Shown here: piece after piece, positions 21,666-28,824 of the stretch
How positions within the stretch are numbered: the stretch's first letter is position 1
Layout of the letters: each line of letters begins with the position of its first letter
Origin: Curtobacterium sp. VKM Ac-2922
Lineage (GTDB): Bacteria > Actinomycetota > Actinomycetes > Actinomycetales > Microbacteriaceae
Reading direction: 5' to 3'
Assembly: GCF_022815645.1 (NCBI RefSeq)
Contig: NZ_JALGRO010000002.1
Span: 186,001 to 250,000, forward strand
Length of the DNA: 64,000 nucleotides
The notes under the pieces: model-generated
What the model was told of the DNA's origin: nothing
The model's input: the letters and a program-made list of their open reading frames with translations, nothing else
Databases searched by the model: none
Program-made: the position numbers and the translations under genes

Positions 21666-22676
21666 CTACGCCGCGGCTCGCGCCAGCATCCCGAGCGTGT
21701 CCACGACCCGGTTCGAGAAGCCCCACTCGTTGTCGTACCAGGCGACGACCTTCACGTGGCGGCCCCCGTCGACGCGGGTCAGCAGCGAGTCGAACACGCT
21801 CGACTCGCTGCGCCCGGTGATGTCCGTCGACACGAGCGGGTCGGCGGTGTACGCCAGCACCCCGGCGAGTGGCCCGGCAGCTGCAGTCCGGTACGCCGCG
21901 TTCACCTGCTCCACGGTGACGTCCCGCGCCACGACGGTGTTCAGCTCGACGATCGACCCGACGGGCACCGGCACACGGATGGCATCGCCGGACAGCTTGC
22001 CCTCCAGTCGCGGCAGCACCAGGCCGATCGCCTTCGCGGCCCCGGTCGTCGTGGGCACGATGTTCACGCCGGCCGCACGAGCGCGGCGAAGGTCGCGGTG
22101 CGGCCCGTCCTGCAGGTTCTGCTCCTGCGTGTAGGCGTGCACGGTCGTCATGAAGCCGTGCTCGATCCCGGCCAGGTCGTCGAGCACCGAGGCCAGCGGC
22201 GCCAGCGCGTTGGTCGTGCAGCTCGCGTTGCTGATGACGGTGTGGCGGGCCGGGTCGAACGTGTCCGAGTTCACGCCGTACGCGATCGTGGCGTCGACCC
22301 CGGTCGCCGGAGCGCTGATCAGCACCCGTGCGGCACCGGCCTGCAGGTGCGCGGCCGCGGCGTCGCGGGCGGTGAAGCGCCCCGTCGACTCCAGGACCAC
22401 CTCGACCCCGAGCTCGCCCCACGGCAACGCGGCGGGGTCACGTTCCGCCAGGACGCGGATCGGCGCGCCGTCGACCACCAGGGTGTCGCCGTCGACCTCG
22501 ACGGTGCCGGCGAACGGGCCGAGTGCCGAGTCGTAGCGGAAGAGGTGCGCCAGCGTCTCCGGCGCGGTCAGGTCGTTGACGGCGACGACCTGCAGGTCGT
22601 CACCGCCGCGGGCGAGCAGTGCGCGGAGGGTGTTGCGTCCGATGCGGCCGAAGCCGTTGATGCCGATGCGGGTCAT
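21666..22676 (-). CDS. gap: Glyceraldehyde-3-phosphate dehydrogenase, type I
   Basis: Glycolytic enzyme converting glyceraldehyde-3-phosphate, NAD and phosphate to 1,3-bisphosphoglycerate; 336 residues, the normal length. Nucleotide fold RIGINGFGRIGRN, catalytic cysteine in NASCTTNALAP, catalytic histidine in TTVHAYTQEQ, and the C-terminal WYDNEWGFSNRVVD. The second cysteine usually found four residues after the catalytic one is alanine here; it is not essential. ATG with AAAGGA upstream. It is not next to pgk and tpi, so this may be a second, stand-alone copy. Confidence 0.95.
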   Translation of the reverse strand: MTRIGINGFGRIGRNTLRALLARGGDDLQVVAVNDLTAPETLAHLFRYDSALGPFAGTVEVDGDTLVVDGAPIRVLAERDPAALPWGELGVEVVLESTGRFTARDAAAAHLQAGAARVLISAPATGVDATIAYGVNSDTFDPARHTVISNASCTTNALAPLASVLDDLAGIEHGFMTTVHAYTQEQNLQDGPHRDLRRARAAGVNIVPTTTGAAKAIGLVLPRLEGKLSGDAIRVPVPVGSIVELNTVVARDVTVEQVNAAYRTAAAGPLAGVLAYTADPLVSTDITGRSESSVFDSLLTRVDGGRHVKVVAWYDNEWGFSNRVVDTLGMLARAAA

Positions 22677-22710
22677 GGGGTTCCTTTCGTCCCGCTGTCC
22701 ATGCTCACCG

Positions 22711-22834: not shown

Positions 22835-23785
22835 TCAGTCCTGGAACGTCTGCCGGTACGCCGTCGGCGTCGTGCCGAGCACCCGGCGGAAGTGCGACCG
22901 CAGGTTCGCGTCCGACCCGAGTCCGGCGCGTTCGGCCACCTGGTCCACCGCCAGGTCCGTCCGCTCGAGCAACTCGCGGGCACGGTCCACCCTCGCTCGG
23001 AGCACCCACTGCATCGGCGTGTACCCGGTGTCCTCGACGAAGCGCCGCGAGAACGTCCGGGCGGACACCGTCGCCGTGCGCGCGAGGACCTCGAGCGTCA
23101 ACGGCTCGGCCAGGTGCCGCAGCGCCCACTCCCGGGTGTCGGCGAACACGTCGCCGAGCGGTTCGGGGACGCTCCGCGGGACGTACTGGGCCTGCCCGCC
23201 GCTGCGGTACGGCGCGCTGACCAGCCGGCGGGCGACGTGGTTCGACAGCGCGACCCCGTGGTCACGGCGCACCAGGTGCAGACACAGGTCGATGCCGCTC
23301 GCCGCTCCGGCGCTCGTCAGGACCGAGCCGGCGTCGACGAACAGGACGTTCTCGTCGACCTCGACCGCGGGGTACCGCTCACCGAGGATCCGCGTGTAGT
23401 GCCAGTGCGTGGTCGCCCGTCGGCCGTCGAGCAGTCCCGCGGCGGCCAGGGCGAACGCGCCGGTCGAGATCGCCGCGATGCGCACCCCGCGCTCGTGCGC
23501 GCGTCGAAGCGCAGCCACGACGGACTCGGGCGGCGGGGTGTCGGCCGGGAACCGGTAGCCGGGGACGAACACCGTGTCCGCCCAGTCGAAGGCCTCGAGT
23601 CCGTGGTCCACGGCGTAGGCCAGCCCGTCCCCACCGGCGACCCGCCCCGCGTGCGGACCGCACACCCGGACCTCGTACGGCATGCTCGGCCGGTTCGAGA
23701 ACACCTGCGCCGGGATCCCGACGTCGAGCGGCTTCGCTCCGTCGAGCACGAGCACCGCGACCCGGTGGAGACGTGGAGGCACCAT
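22835..23785 (-). CDS. GlxA-like AraC-family regulator
   Basis: Regulator of 316 residues with two domains: an N-terminal DJ-1/PfpI-like fold (residues about 8-185; VAVLVLDGAKPLDVG, FVPGYRF, AISTGAFALAAAGLLDGRRATTHW) and a C-terminal AraC helix-turn-helix pair (about 215-312; LEVLARTATVSARTFSRRF, VAERAGLGSDANLRSHFRRV). The nucleophile position holds Thr-Gly (STGAF) instead of the Cys of active DJ-1 enzymes, so it is a sensor and not an enzyme. The ATG has TAGCGT six bases upstream, a leaderless promoter. Its target is unknown. Confidence 0.92.
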   Translation of the reverse strand: MVPPRLHRVAVLVLDGAKPLDVGIPAQVFSNRPSMPYEVRVCGPHAGRVAGGDGLAYAVDHGLEAFDWADTVFVPGYRFPADTPPPESVVAALRRAHERGVRIAAISTGAFALAAAGLLDGRRATTHWHYTRILGERYPAVEVDENVLFVDAGSVLTSAGAASGIDLCLHLVRRDHGVALSNHVARRLVSAPYRSGGQAQYVPRSVPEPLGDVFADTREWALRHLAEPLTLEVLARTATVSARTFSRRFVEDTGYTPMQWVLRARVDRARELLERTDLAVDQVAERAGLGSDANLRSHFRRVLGTTPTAYRQTFQD

Positions 23786-23838: not shown

Positions 23839-24558
23839 TCAGACGTCGCGGATCGCGAGCACGCGGTGCGGTGCCGCGGCCTCGGCGCGCCAGCCCTTCG
23901 GCAGCGCGGCATGCAGTTCGGGCAGCGTGAAGCTCCGACGGATCGACCGCAGCCCGTCGACCCGGACGAAGGTGCCGGCAGCGACGAGCGTGGACCCGAG
24001 CGCGTACGCCCGGTAGGCGGCCGGCGAGCGGCGGATGTCCGAGTGCAGGCTGCGTTTCGCCGCCAGGTGTTCCGAGTCCGCCAGGAACCCGGCACGCTCG
24101 TCGTCGTCCAGGTGGTGCAGCACGTGGTTCGACACGACCACGTCGAACTGCTCCCCCGCGGCCACCAGCGCGCCACTCGACTGTTCGCGAAAGGTCACCC
24201 CGCGCGTCGTCGCCCGGTTGGCAGCGGCGATGGCGCGCGGGTCGGGGTCGACGCCGACCACCTCGATGTCGAAGCCGTCACCGTCCGCCCACTTCACGAG
24301 CGCGCGAGCCAGGTCGCCGCCACCGCATCCCAGGTCGAGCACCCGCCCGCGCCCATGGGCCGGCAGCGCCGGCACGACGTGGGTCCGCCAGGCGGCACGC
24401 CACCCGCTCACCAGTGCGTTCACCACCGCGAACCGCCGGAACGTCCGTTCGAGCGCGCGCGGGTCGCAGTCGGGGTCGTCCATCAGCTCGCGGAGCACCA
24501 GGTCACGGGTGCTCAGGTCGATCGGGAGGCCCGGCTCGGCTCCGCGGGGCCGGCTCAC
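23839..24558 (-). CDS. Class I SAM-dependent methyltransferase
   Basis: Soluble methyltransferase of 239 residues. Motif I VLDLGCGGGDLARAL, acidic loop VVGVDPDP, and post-motif SNHVLHHLDDDE are clear. The start is GTG at 24558, overlapping the type III polyketide synthase stop as GTGA, so it must modify that enzyme's product or a close precursor. The N-terminal VSRPRGAEPGLPIDL is encoded by a copy of the dispersed palindrome (24520-24543). O-methylation of a phenolic lipid is the likely reaction; this is inference from context. Confidence 0.92.
   Translation of the reverse strand: MSRPRGAEPGLPIDLSTRDLVLRELMDDPDCDPRALERTFRRFAVVNALVSGWRAAWRTHVVPALPAHGRGRVLDLGCGGGDLARALVKWADGDGFDIEVVGVDPDPRAIAAANRATTRGVTFREQSSGALVAAGEQFDVVVSNHVLHHLDDDERAGFLADSEHLAAKRSLHSDIRRSPAAYRAYALGSTLVAAGTFVRVDGLRSIRRSFTLPELHAALPKGWRAEAAAPHRVLAIRDV
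24520..24543. repeat. Dispersed palindromic element in the methyltransferase N-terminus
   Basis: Read on the coding strand it is GGAGCCGAGCCGGGCCTCCC, the same core as in the kinase, MFS and DUF3097 genes. It encodes GAEPGLP within the first 12 residues, before the conserved fold begins. Confidence 0.65.
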
Positions 24559-25694
24559 CGGAGCTCTCCGGCGAGTTCCGGTTCGGCGATCACGTCGGCG
24601 GTCGCGCTCGCGGCGTTCGTCCCCACCGCGGTCAGCCGGGCGCTCTCGACCGTCAGCCCCGGTCCGAAGGCCAGCGCCACCACGGGCGTACCGTCCGTGA
24701 GCCCGGCGTCCACCGCGTCGCGCAACACGAACAGGACGGTCGCACTGGACATGTTGCCGTGGTCGCGCAGCACCGCACGGCTGCTGGCCATCGCGCTGTC
24801 GGGCAGGGCGAGCGCGTCCTGGGTGCGGTCGAGGATCGCGCGGCCGCCGGGGTGCACCGCCCAGATCGGGACTGCGGCGGCGGGACCGTCCAGCAGGGGC
24901 GCGACGGCCTGGGCCACGGTGGCTCCGACGAGCTTCGGGACGGCGGTGCTGAGGACCATCTCGAACCCTTCGTCGCCGATGTTCCACGCCATCTCCGACG
25001 CGCCCTCGGGCACGAGGGTCGTCGCGAAGGTGTCGAGCCGGAGCCCGGGGCCGTCGGCCGTGACGACCGCCGCGGCGGCACCGTCCCCGAAGACGCTGTT
25101 CGCGACGATCTGGTCGGGGTCGTCCGACGCGCGGACGTGCAGCGTGCAGAGTTCGGCGCAGACCACCAGCACGACGGCGTCCGGGTCGGACTCGGCGAAG
25201 GCGGCAGCGCTCCGGAGGGCCGGGAACGCCGCGCAGCAGCCCATGAACCCGATGTGGTGCCGGAACACGGTGCGCCGCAGCCCGAGTTCCTCGACGATCG
25301 CCAGGTCGGGCCCGGGCTGCGTGAAGCCCGTGCACGACACGGTCACCAGGTGCGTCACGGACGCCGGGTCGACCGCGGCGCGCTCGAGGGCGTCACGCGC
25401 CGACGCGACGAACAGCGGCGGAGCGAGTTCGCGGTACCGGTCGTTGCGCATGCCCGTCGACGGTGAGTGCAGCAGGCCGTCGGCGTCGCGGAAGGGTCCG
25501 GGCGCGGCCGCGGGGTCGAGCTCGGGCAGGACCGTGTGCCGGTGCTCGACGTGGGACGCGTCGAACGCCGCGGGCACCACCCGCCGGCCGAGTCGTCCCA
25601 GGCCCGGCTGCGCGGCGAAGAGCTGCCGGACAGCCACCTGCTGCAGCGTCGTCGTGGGGACGGCGGTACCGATGGCGCGGATCGTTGCGGACAC
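24555..25694 (-). CDS. Type III polyketide synthase
   Basis: Chalcone-synthase-like homodimeric enzyme of 379 residues that extends an acyl-CoA with malonyl-CoA. The catalytic triad is complete: Cys in HHIGFMGCCAAFPAL, His in WAVHPGGRAIL, Asn in RDHGNMSSATVLFVL; TVSCTGFTQPGPD is the usual motif before it. The start is GTG at 25694 (VSATIRAIG) with GAGG close upstream. Relatives make alkylresorcinols, alkylpyrones or tetrahydroxynaphthalene; the chain length cannot be read here. The pair with a methyltransferase suggests a methylated phenolic lipid. Confidence 0.94.
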   Translation of the reverse strand: MSATIRAIGTAVPTTTLQQVAVRQLFAAQPGLGRLGRRVVPAAFDASHVEHRHTVLPELDPAAAPGPFRDADGLLHSPSTGMRNDRYRELAPPLFVASARDALERAAVDPASVTHLVTVSCTGFTQPGPDLAIVEELGLRRTVFRHHIGFMGCCAAFPALRSAAAFAESDPDAVVLVVCAELCTLHVRASDDPDQIVANSVFGDGAAAAVVTADGPGLRLDTFATTLVPEGASEMAWNIGDEGFEMVLSTAVPKLVGATVAQAVAPLLDGPAAAVPIWAVHPGGRAILDRTQDALALPDSAMASSRAVLRDHGNMSSATVLFVLRDAVDAGLTDGTPVVALAFGPGLTVESARLTAVGTNAASATADVIAEPELAGELR

Positions 25695-25774
25695 GCCTCA
25701 TCCTGTCACTCGAGCGATGACGCGCCCCCAGGAAGCACGGCTCCCCGGGGACGCGTCGACACGTGCGTGGGCGC

Positions 25775-27277
25775 TCAGGCCTGGGCGCGCTCCAGCACGA
25801 GCTCGCGCACGCGGGCGGCGTCCGCCTGGCCCTGCATGGCCTTCATGACGGCACCGATGATGGCGCCGGCGGCCTGGACCTTGCCGTCGCGGATCTTCGC
25901 GAGCACGTCCGGCTGCGCGGCGAGTGCCTGGTCCACCGCGGCAGTCAGCGCCGAGTCGTCCGAGACGACCTTCAGCCCGCGCGACTCGACGACCGCGGAC
26001 GGGGATCCCTCGCCGGCGATGACCCCCTCGAGCACCTGACGTGCGAGACGATCGGTGAGCTCACCGGACTCGACCAGTGTGATGAGCTCGGCGACGTGCG
26101 CGGGCGACACCAGGTCACCGGGGGCCGCGTCCCGCGTGTTGGCGACACGGCTGATCTCGCCGGTCCACCACTTGCGGGCCGCCTGGGCCGGGGCACCGGC
26201 GGCGACGGTGGCCTCGAGCTCGTCGAGCAGGCCGCCGTTCACCACGTCCTGGAACTCCAGGTCCGCGAAGCCCCAGTCGCCCTTCAGCCGACGTCGGCGT
26301 GCCACCGGCGCCTCGGGCAGGGACGCACGGAGTTCCTCGATCATCGCCGGGTCCGGGACGACCGGCAGCAGGTCGGGCTCCGGGAAGTAGCGGTAGTCGT
26401 CCGCGTCCGACTTGGGGCGACCGGCCGAGGTCCGACCGGTGTCCTCGTGCCAGTGCCGGGTCTCCTGCGTGATGGTGCCGCCGTCGGCCAGGATGGCCGC
26501 CTGCCGCTGGATCTCGTAGCGGATGGCGCGCTCGACGGCACGGAACGAGTTGACGTTCTTGGTCTCGGTGCGGGTGCCGAGCTTCTCCTGGCCCCAGGGG
26601 CGCAGCGAGATGTTGGCGTCGCAGCGCAGGTTGCCGCGTTCCATCCGGGCCTCGGAGACACCGAGCGCGCGCACCAGGTCGCGGATCACCTGCACGTACG
26701 CGGCACCGAGCTCGGGGGCACGGTGTGCGGCGCCGAAGATCGGCTTGGTGACGATCTCGACGAGCGGCACGCCGGCACGGTTGTAGTCGACGAGCGAGTA
26801 CTCGGCGCCCTGGATCCGACCGGTCGCACCACCGACGTGGGTGAGCTTGCCCGCGTCTTCTTCCATGTGGGCACGCTCGATCGGTACCTGGAAGATCGTG
26901 CCGTCGGCGAGCTCGACCTCGACTTCGCCCTCGAACGCGATCGGCTCGTCGTACTGCGAGATCTGGTAGTTCTTCGGGTTGTCCGGGTAGTAGTAGTTCT
27001 TCCGGGCGAACCGCGAGGACTCGGCGATCGAGCAGCCGAGGGCGAGCCCGAGGTTGATCGAGAAGCGCACGGCCTGCTCGTTGACCACCGGCAGCGACCC
27101 GGGCAGCCCGAGGTCGACCGGCGTGACGTTGGTGTTCGGTTCGCCACCGAAGAAGTTCGGGGCGTCGGAGAACATCTTGGTCTTCGTCGCGAGCTCGACG
27201 TGCACCTCGAAGCCGAGCACCGGCTCGAAGCGCTCGAGTGCCTCGTCGAAGTCCATCAGTGCGTCCTTGGCGGCCAT
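25775..27277 (-). CDS. gatB: Asp/Glu-tRNA amidotransferase subunit B
   Basis: Subunit of GatCAB, which converts misacylated Glu-tRNA(Gln) (and Asp-tRNA(Asn)) to the amide form. 500 residues, the standard length. N-terminal [21 protein letters not shown], cradle-domain [13 protein letters not shown] and [19 protein letters not shown], and the helical C-terminal tRNA-binding YqeY-like domain ([16 protein letters not shown]). The ATG overlaps the gatA stop by one base (TGATG). Confidence 0.98.
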
Positions 27278-28824
27278 CAGACCACGCCTTCCTCTGCTGC
27301 CGACTGCTGACTCTGGTCGAGGTCGGGGATCCGGTCGATGAGCGGGGCGCCCCACTGCTGCTCGAGCAGGCGTTCGAGCGCCGCGCCGTAGCGGTACAGC
27401 CGCTCGTCGGCGCGCTGCGGTGCCATCAGCTGGACGCCGGTGGGCAGGCCGTCCTCGGGGGCCAGGCCGTTCGGGATGCTCATGCCGGGCACGCCCGCCA
27501 GGTTGGCCGGGATGGTGGTCAGGTCGTTCAAGTACATCGCCAGCGGGTCGTCGAGGCGCTCACCCAGGGGGAACGCGGTCGTCGGCGCCGACGGGCTGAC
27601 CAGCAGGTCGACCTGCGCGAAGGCGGCGTCGAAGTCGCGCTGCACCAGCGTGCGGACCTTCTGCGCGCTGCCGTAGTACGCGTCGTAGTAGCCGGCGCTC
27701 AGCGCGTAGGTGCCGAGGATGATGCGACGCTTGACCTCGGGACCGAAGCCCGCTTCGCGCGTGGCGGCCATCACGTCCTCGACGGTGGCGCTGTCCTGGG
27801 GGGTGACCCGCAGGCCGAAGCGCACGGAGTCGAACTTCGCCAGGTTCGACGATGCCTCGGCCGGGAGGATCAGGTAGTACGCGCTGATGGCGTACGCGAA
27901 GCTCGGGGCGTCGATCTCGACCACCTGGGCACCGGCGGACTCGAGGATCGCCACGGTCTCCTGGAACCGCTGGACGACGCCGGCCTGGAAGCCCTCGCCC
28001 CCCGCCAGTTCCTTGACCACGCCCACGCGGAGCCCACGCAGCGTGTCGGCCTGCAGGCCGTCGCGCGCGGCGGCAGCGAACGAGGGCCACTCCTGCGGGA
28101 TGGAGGTGGAGTCGCGCGGGTCGTGCCCGCCGATCACGTCGTGCAGCAGCGCCGCGTCGAGGACGGTGCGGGCGACGGGACCGACCTGGTCGAGCGAGGA
28201 CGCCAGGGCGATCGCGCCGTACCGGCTGACCCCACCGTAGGTCGGCTTGACACCGACGGTGCCGGTCACGGCCCCCGGCTGGCGGATGGACCCGCCCGTG
28301 TCGGAGCCGAGCGCGAGCGGCGCTTCGAACGCGGCGACCGCAGCGGCGGACCCACCGCCGGATCCGCCCGGGATCCGGCCGAGGTCCCACGGGTTGTGCG
28401 TCGGGCCGTAGGCGGAGAACTCGGTGGTCGAGCCCATCGCGAACTCGTCCATGTTCGTCTTGCCGAGCAGCACCATGCCGGCCCGGCGCAGCTTGCTCAC
28501 CGTGGTGGCGTCGTACGGCGGGACCCATCCTTCGAGGATCTTCGAGCCCGCGGTCGACGGCATGTCGATCGTGCAGAGGACGTCCTTGACGGCGACCGGG
28601 ACGCCCGCGAGCGCGCCGAGGTCGTCACCGGCGGCGCGGCGCGAGTCGATGGACTTCGCGGCGCTGACGGCGTGCTCGTTGACGTGCAGGAACGCGTGCA
28701 CGTCTGGGTCGACGGCCGCGATCCGGTCGAGGTGGGCCTGCGTGGCTTCGACGCTCGAGACGTCGCGCGCGACCAGGGCGTCGGCGAGCGCAGCGGCGCT
28801 CAGCCGGGTGATGTCGTCGGTCAC
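27277..28824 (-). CDS. gatA: Asp/Glu-tRNA amidotransferase subunit A
   Basis: Amidase subunit that releases ammonia from glutamine for the GatCAB complex. The Ser-cisSer-Lys triad is in VAVKDVLCT (Lys), [14 protein letters not shown] (cis-Ser) and [13 protein letters not shown] (Ser nucleophile region). 515 residues, close to the usual 485-500. The GTG start overlaps the gatC stop as GTGA. Confidence 0.98.

Follow-up and report, generated by a model that had tools for sequence, protein, structure and literature searches.

Several described gene sets resemble the locus studied here in combining a type III polyketide synthase (PKS) with tailoring enzymes; the publications on them are cited for those parts of their text that were accessible. 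Among them are the hierridin genes HidA-HidB-HidC of picocyanobacteria and a three-gene operon of Planctomycetota. HidC is described as an alkylresorcinol synthase (PMC8086630), and in C. glutamicum, resorcinols with a pentadecyl or heptadecyl chain were formed by the enzymes from Gimesia maris, Rhodopirellula baltica and Stieleria maiorica; addition of the methyltransferase (MT) and oxidoreductase genes of G. maris led to methylated resorcinols (PMC10896814). The PKS operon of S. maiorica has no oxidoreductase gene, and the accessible text of the same report does not mention an unlinked partner (PMC10896814). In Streptomyces and Mycobacterium, srsABC and pkqABC likewise consist of a PKS, a methyltransferase and an oxidoreductase, with a Trp at the ArsB position; their product is a methylated alkylbenzoquinone, and polyketide quinones act as electron carriers (PMC9927152), while SrsB is annotated as an isoprenylcysteine carboxyl methyltransferase (PMC6669644). 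A type III PKS near methyltransferase and UbiA genes has been reported for the losA region of Micromonospora endolithica, which yields the loseolamycins; these are alkylresorcinols, for which the accessible text makes no claim of prenylation (PMC7587189). Within the Microbacteriaceae, the clusters around type III PKS genes in Microbacterium have been sorted into types A to D according to other flanking genes, a type III PKS being present in 79% of the genomes in that study, and the words UbiA and prenyltransferase are absent from the main text of that study (PMC7438953). For a Curtobacterium, an antiSMASH T3PKS call with two regions has been published (PMC10456417), and the accessible parts of PMC12067966 and PMC5552033 hold nothing further on the gene pair described below. 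In the literature that we covered, which takes in few subscription journals and some papers only in part, we found no account of UbiA with a Microbacteriaceae type III PKS locus, or of the split Curtobacterium gene set presented here.

The window analysed here is a stretch of 64,000 nucleotides from Curtobacterium sp. VKM Ac-2922, in which positions 24555-25694 of the minus strand encode a type III PKS. The frame translates into 379 residues with zero internal stops. Pfam scans returned PF00195 (91 bits) and PF02797 (83 bits), each above its cut-off, and the best PDB match of an AlphaFold2 model of the protein (mean pLDDT 92.4) was 4b0n, a type III PKS, at a TM score of 0.87. Residues Cys153, His281 and Asn314 are invariant in all 23 aligned PKS sequences from Actinobacteria, Bacteroidota, Cyanobacteria, Proteobacteria, Planctomycetota and others, as they are in the 36 sequences of a second alignment, mostly from Microbacteriaceae; a scan for the pattern GNMSSA matched 32 of these 36, and the aligned columns keep PKS residues in 36/36. 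With the catalytic triad and the CHS fold both present, the protein is a type III polyketide synthase of the chalcone/stilbene synthase superfamily. The preliminary description, which had called the enzyme complete with Cys, His and Asn in place, was right in this and exact in its coordinates. The protein has a second thiol, Cys121. Residue 154, which follows the catalytic Cys153, is also Cys in the window PKS; of four further Curtobacterium sequences in the alignment, two (L041 and L063) share it, and the remaining aligned relatives have Ala, Tyr, His, Gln or Phe at this site. A second PKS in the same genome was considered and rejected: the sole other PF00195 match (contig C26, 146677-146955; 37 bits, cut-off 27) falls within an open reading frame that we take to resemble HMG-CoA synthase. 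A recent island was rejected as well, the G+C content of the pair (0.74) falling inside the range of the window (0.67-0.75) and the PKS-MT pair being genus-wide.

The PKS gene is followed on the same strand by a class I SAM methyltransferase gene (23839-24558, 239 residues), and the two share a GTGA overlap, seen as TCAC on the plus strand at 24555-24558. The product reached 282 bits against NCBIfam NF004851 (PRK06202; cut-off 243), a model described merely as "hypothetical protein", and 57.5 bits against Methyltransf_25; at an E-value of 0.001 all of its Pfam matches were to class I methyltransferase families. A glycine-rich pattern that we tried matched 11 of 35 MT sequences. Of 42 related loci, 28 likewise have PKS and MT genes that overlap by four nucleotides, going by MT starts that were extrapolated from tblastn matches. 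The GTGA-coupled class I methyltransferase of the preliminary description is thus borne out by both the overlap and the profiles. Beyond it, 53 nucleotides past the MT gene and on the same strand, lies a gene for an FtrA-like DJ-1/AraC regulator (22835-23785), found 3' of the MT gene in 14 of 42 loci and within 150 nucleotides of it in 12, and then a minus-strand gene (21666-22688) that we take from its sequence to be GAPDH-like. No FAD oxidoreductase was found among the proteins of the window that were scanned, which lie between 18.2 and 28.8 kb.

On the upstream side, also on the minus strand, are gatB (25775-27277, with the start picked by eye), a conserved neighbour outside the pathway, and gatA (27277-28824). 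The position directly downstream of gatB had been put forward as an unusual place for secondary metabolism. The adjacency is real and nearly genus-wide: across 41 loci with more than 2.5 kb upstream each, two of them titled only Microbacteriaceae, gatB adjoins the PKS gene in 39, the other two (L042 and L069) having no gatB upstream. In the window, gatB and the PKS gene are separated by a gap with a strong 18-bp hairpin (25719-25757, minus strand; z -3.45), without a U tract, and an unbroken stem run of at least 13 is predicted in this gap, 85 to 243 nucleotides long, in 38 of the 39 loci. Scans for consensus promoters and terminators found none, and the hairpin is probably the end of the gat operon. 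In five genomes of the genus g66, the sequence read to either side of PKS contained no gatB. Because of the intervening hairpin, the two loci that lack gatB and the g66 stretches, the gatB neighbourhood looks positional.

An oxidoreductase, which the preliminary description named among the further genes of most such clusters, is present in the same genome, at a separate locus outside the window. Searched against this genome, the FAD protein of Nesterenkonia matched contig C26 at 119180-120316 (E 1.2e-58, 44% identity, residues 4-381 of 385), within a plus-strand gene (119159-120322) for an FAD monooxygenase of the FAD_binding_3, aromatic-hydroxylase type. Directly behind it, tail to tail on the opposite strand, is a gene for a UbiA prenyltransferase (C26, 120414-121268; PF01040, 85 bits), the product of which, compared over the best segment, shares 46-54% identity with the UbiA proteins of Microbacterium and Nesterenkonia PKS loci. 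The FAD and UbiA proteins were both assigned by Pfam and NCBIfam. The hallmark motifs of UbiA, one of the NDxxDxxxD type and a second Asp-rich motif, are present in 30 of 30 UbiA sequences. Values of dN/dS, from three comparisons per gene, were 0.12-0.16 for PKS, 0.10-0.18 for MT, 0.18-0.19 for FAD, 0.09-0.12 for UbiA and 0.03-0.05 for gatB. Two further features of the FAD loci were seen. A TetR-type regulator gene and an acyltransferase_3 gene precede FAD on the same strand in six of nine Curtobacterium FAD loci (L116, L194, L196, L198, L200 and L201; in the window genome at L116:5250-7068 on contig C26), the acyltransferase stands alone in L203, and neither gene is found in L190, L192 or the five g66 FAD loci. 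Two adjoining genes (L117:1940-4185, that is C26, 145939-148184), presumably for HMG-CoA synthase and HMG-CoA reductase, lie about 25 kb from the FAD-UbiA pair; a mevalonate route near the pair could supply isoprenoid.

We then counted the four genes in 60 Curtobacterium genomes. PKS and MT were each found in 59, G065 being without both. Some FAD-family match to the Nesterenkonia query occurs in all 60; it is strong (E about 2e-39 or better) in 56 and weak only in G009, G026, G032 and G076. UbiA was found in 57, partially in G009 and G077. All four genes are present in 55 genomes. FAD and UbiA are convergent in each of the 54 genomes that have both on one contig, at most 300 nucleotides apart in 46 and never more than 4.5 kb. 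PKS and FAD share a contig in 18 of the 55 genomes having both, and there they lie 1.03-2.11 Mb apart along it. There are exceptions in both directions: G032 and G076, each listed as 100% complete, have PKS and MT with no UbiA match and weak FAD-family matches, and G065 is the reverse case, with FAD and UbiA and neither PKS nor MT. The PKS match is split into two pieces in G026 and G067. In the latter (C1, 1632968-1634067) the pieces overlap and have short open frames, possibly through a frameshift in the PKS gene, and the matches for MT, FAD and UbiA are almost complete.

Outside Curtobacterium the four families are often found at one locus. A PKS-MT-FAD arrangement with a convergent UbiA is present in two Microbacterium and four Nesterenkonia loci, and PKS-MT-FAD in one Brevibacterium locus. 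In a sample of 299 genomes of the family, a match of E 1e-60 or better placed a PKS of the window clade in 117, and around that gene FAD was taken as linked within 5 kb and UbiA within 8 kb. By these limits FAD is near PKS in 83 of the 117, together with UbiA in 37 and without UbiA near in 46; in two of the latter, G152 and G273, UbiA matches were found at other sites. The split form, with FAD and UbiA together and away from PKS, accounts for 12 of the 117, namely all seven Curtobacterium and all five g66 genomes, and in 22 no FAD match was listed within 5 kb of PKS. MT lies between PKS and FAD in all 15 linked loci that were read (L164-L178). FAD and UbiA are within 3 kb of each other in 49 genomes of the family and convergent in 44; the five non-convergent ones belong to a single genus, g71, where UbiA is on the opposite side of PKS. 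The label of a minimal two-gene cluster is accurate for the window, PKS and MT being the whole local cluster. As a description of the pathway it misleads, because FAD is near PKS in most genomes of the clade and the FAD-UbiA pair of Curtobacterium is at another locus: two genes are probably not the whole pathway.

We asked whether UbiA belongs with type III PKS chemistry. UbiA matches occur in 53 of the 117 genomes with the window PKS clade, in 99 of 105 genomes with only another PKS-query match (E 0.001 or better, some weak enough for other ketosynthases), and in 13 of 77 without a PKS match; the last two differ at a Fisher p of about 1e-28, uncorrected for relatedness or genome size. In the one genome where the other PKS type was checked (G110), it is PKS11-like, of the srs/pkq kind, and 33% identical to the window PKS. 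UbiA lies about 1.6 kb from a different type III PKS at L209 (G176 C1, 1045835-1049273), the sole near case among the places listed and a second instance of UbiA linked to PKS, here of another type. Elsewhere, in the loci read, those neighbours of unlinked UbiA genes that were scanned with Pfam include members of the amylase, MFS transporter and short-chain dehydrogenase families and, in G152, which has the window PKS clade, a zinc dehydrogenase; that the UbiA relatives of other-PKS genomes stand amid sugar and transport genes tells against a shared pathway. A role of UbiA as carotenoid elongase was considered and rejected, none of five neighbours (one for each of five UbiA loci, a thin test) being of a carotenoid family. 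In five Bacteroidota loci (L084:5047-6090, L086, L087, L095 and L107), PKS and MT are accompanied by a UbiA-type gene of their own, adjoining PKS (one was scanned), and four of the five also have a gene called as geranylgeranyl-reductase-like. This UbiA-type gene had no similarity to Curtobacterium UbiA in tblastn at 1e-6, and the Bacteroidota pairing of PKS and prenyltransferase looks independent. For the Curtobacterium set, prenylation by UbiA is likely.

The two halves of the set have different histories, as judged by their trees. FAD and UbiA trees group Curtobacterium with g66 (support 100/98 and 99/99, respectively), whereas PKS and MT trees place g66 with Pseudoclavibacter, at 100/99 for PKS and a weak 83/55 for MT. 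Constraining Curtobacterium and g66 to group together was rejected for PKS (AU p 0.021) and MT (AU p 0.0027), in a test weakened by the post hoc choice of the group. The Pseudoclavibacter PKS locus has no FAD or UbiA match. FAD-UbiA was therefore probably already separate in a common ancestor, and PKS-MT probably moved or was exchanged as one unit. The arrangement is not a simple cut of one cluster, yet its parts are retained together in most genomes of the genus.

Compared with the hierridin genes and the planctomycetal operon, the Curtobacterium set shares the class I MT and Trp237 of the PKS. The window PKS shares 45% identity with its counterpart in Cyanobium sp. CH-040 (L093), a protein that we used as a stand-in for HidC of LEGE 06113 and whose gene sits after MT-family and oxidoreductase-family genes. 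By this comparison with a Cyanobium relative, the window pair consists of a HidC-related PKS and a class I MT, as the hierridin type does. The differences lie in the partners. The hierridin genes form one locus, whereas the Curtobacterium PKS-MT pair has no oxidoreductase among its neighbours scanned in the window and is never less than 1.03 Mb from FAD on shared contigs. The Cyanobium oxidoreductase clusters with proteins scoring as geranylgeranyl-reductase-like, in contrast to the FAD_binding_3 type of Curtobacterium; its cluster (2) was not joined at 1e-10 to the cluster (6) of Microbacterium, Brevibacterium, Nesterenkonia and Kiritimatiellae, though both clusters fall among FAD oxidoreductases. 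Two UbiA queries had no match in L093. Compared with srsABC and pkqABC, the Curtobacterium MT is of class I and not SrsB-type, the loci are separate and UbiA is extra. The two-gene operon of Stieleria maiorica resembles the window pair; the losA region resembles the Curtobacterium set by its gene description, and Microbacterium types A to D belong to the same family as the window PKS, in the published accounts as far as these were accessible.

Four gene families that share one locus in other genera thus occupy separate positions in Curtobacterium and g66 and are retained jointly. We consider it probable, with a good measure of doubt left, that they would act as one pathway, PKS-MT supplying one half and the unlinked FAD-UbiA pair the other. 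The PKS would load a long fatty acyl starter, add three malonyl units and close the ring by a C2-C7 aldol reaction, giving a 5-alkylresorcinol. MT would methylate this product, the FAD enzyme would hydroxylate the ring to an alkyl hydroquinone or quinone, and UbiA would probably add an isoprenoid chain, with no order of tailoring implied; the resulting phenolic lipid or quinone would reside in the membrane. We infer this chemistry, from alkylresorcinol to methylation, ring hydroxylation and prenylation, from HidC and from the planctomycetal and Streptomyces/Mycobacterium systems.

Other products have to be weighed against this one. A long-chain alkylpyrone synthase with a pyrone O-methyltransferase, like the Bacillus pair BpsA-BpsB, would have the same two-gene layout of PKS and methyltransferase. 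One pointer is the residue that decides between resorcinol and pyrone in ArsB, Trp281 (PMC6274091). The window PKS has Trp237 there, a residue present in 23/23 and 36/36 aligned sequences; it aligns with the Trp of PKS11, through which, and not by direct alignment, it was equated with the ArsB position (PMC5916927; PMC9927152), ArsC and ArsB being absent among the best 60 PDB search matches. The same Trp is found in FtpA, SrsA, PKS10 and PKS11 (PMC5916927; PMC9927152), and at this position the Leu of PKS18, called alkylpyrone-forming (PMC5916927), stands against the Cyanobium Trp. PKS11 blurs the rule: PDB titles and PMC8086630 name it a pyrone synthase, but PMC5916927 lists it among alkylresorcinol formers. 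Trp237 thus favours a resorcinol without being decisive, since PKS11, with Trp at this position too, is reported to form a pyrone. A comparison of cavity residues with alkylresorcinol and alkylpyrone synthases, proposed in the preliminary description and carried out here in part, sets the window enzyme with the former and apart from PKS18, with this reservation about PKS11. HidC and the three planctomycetal enzymes, of the same clade, make resorcinols in the accessible reports, and a hydroxylating FAD partner suits a phenol better, so that an alkylpyrone appears improbable; of the products first suggested, the methylated resorcinol is a likely one. A short-starter phenol such as 3,5-dihydroxyphenylacetate, from a DpgA-like enzyme, is the least credible product and very improbable: the NCBIfam model that fits the PKS best is that of DpgA (E 7.2e-46), but its 156.7 bits (157 rounded) fall far below the NF042429 cut-off of 425, and no dpg-type partner was found among the scanned neighbours.

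The four-gene pathway has also to be set against a shorter one, in which PKS and MT act alone, a methylated alkylresorcinol is the end product and FAD-UbiA serve another substrate. Two genomes, G032 and G076, keep PKS-MT without FAD-UbiA, the reverse case G065 exists, the trees of the two halves disagree, and 46 genomes of the family have PKS-FAD without UbiA near; all of these count against the four-gene pathway. These exceptions, and the Stieleria maiorica operon without an oxidoreductase gene, lend a two-gene product some probability. The retention of all four genes in 55 of 60 Curtobacterium genomes speaks against it, and in 83 of the 117 family genomes FAD lies close to PKS, whether UbiA is there too or not, which would be hard to explain otherwise. 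We thus hold the two-gene product to be unlikely, if the strongest of the alternatives, and return to the four-gene pathway as the reading that we prefer.

The enzyme families are ordinary and the kind of pathway is known; what distinguishes the Curtobacterium set is its arrangement, which is genus-wide, physically split and probably prenylating. Gene-cluster mining would log Curtobacterium as having a two-gene T3PKS cluster and miss half of the probable pathway. The split set predicts a product recognisable by mass spectrometry from its isoprenoid chain, its single methyl group and either one ring oxygen or the corresponding quinone form. Curtobacterium are mostly plant-associated bacteria. 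Should the resorcinol be a substrate of UbiA, a phenolic lipid or quinone with a prenyl group, as yet undescribed, would be produced by a large group of Actinobacteria. We suggest tentatively, and as a possibility open to considerable doubt, that many Microbacteriaceae may make an undescribed prenylated and methylated alkyl-hydroquinone or quinone, a polyketide-terpenoid membrane lipid, for which a dedicated UbiA would act with two or more clades of type III PKS, from an unlinked locus both in Curtobacterium and in those lineages where the PKS is of another type, and which may provide an alternative electron carrier beside menaquinone.
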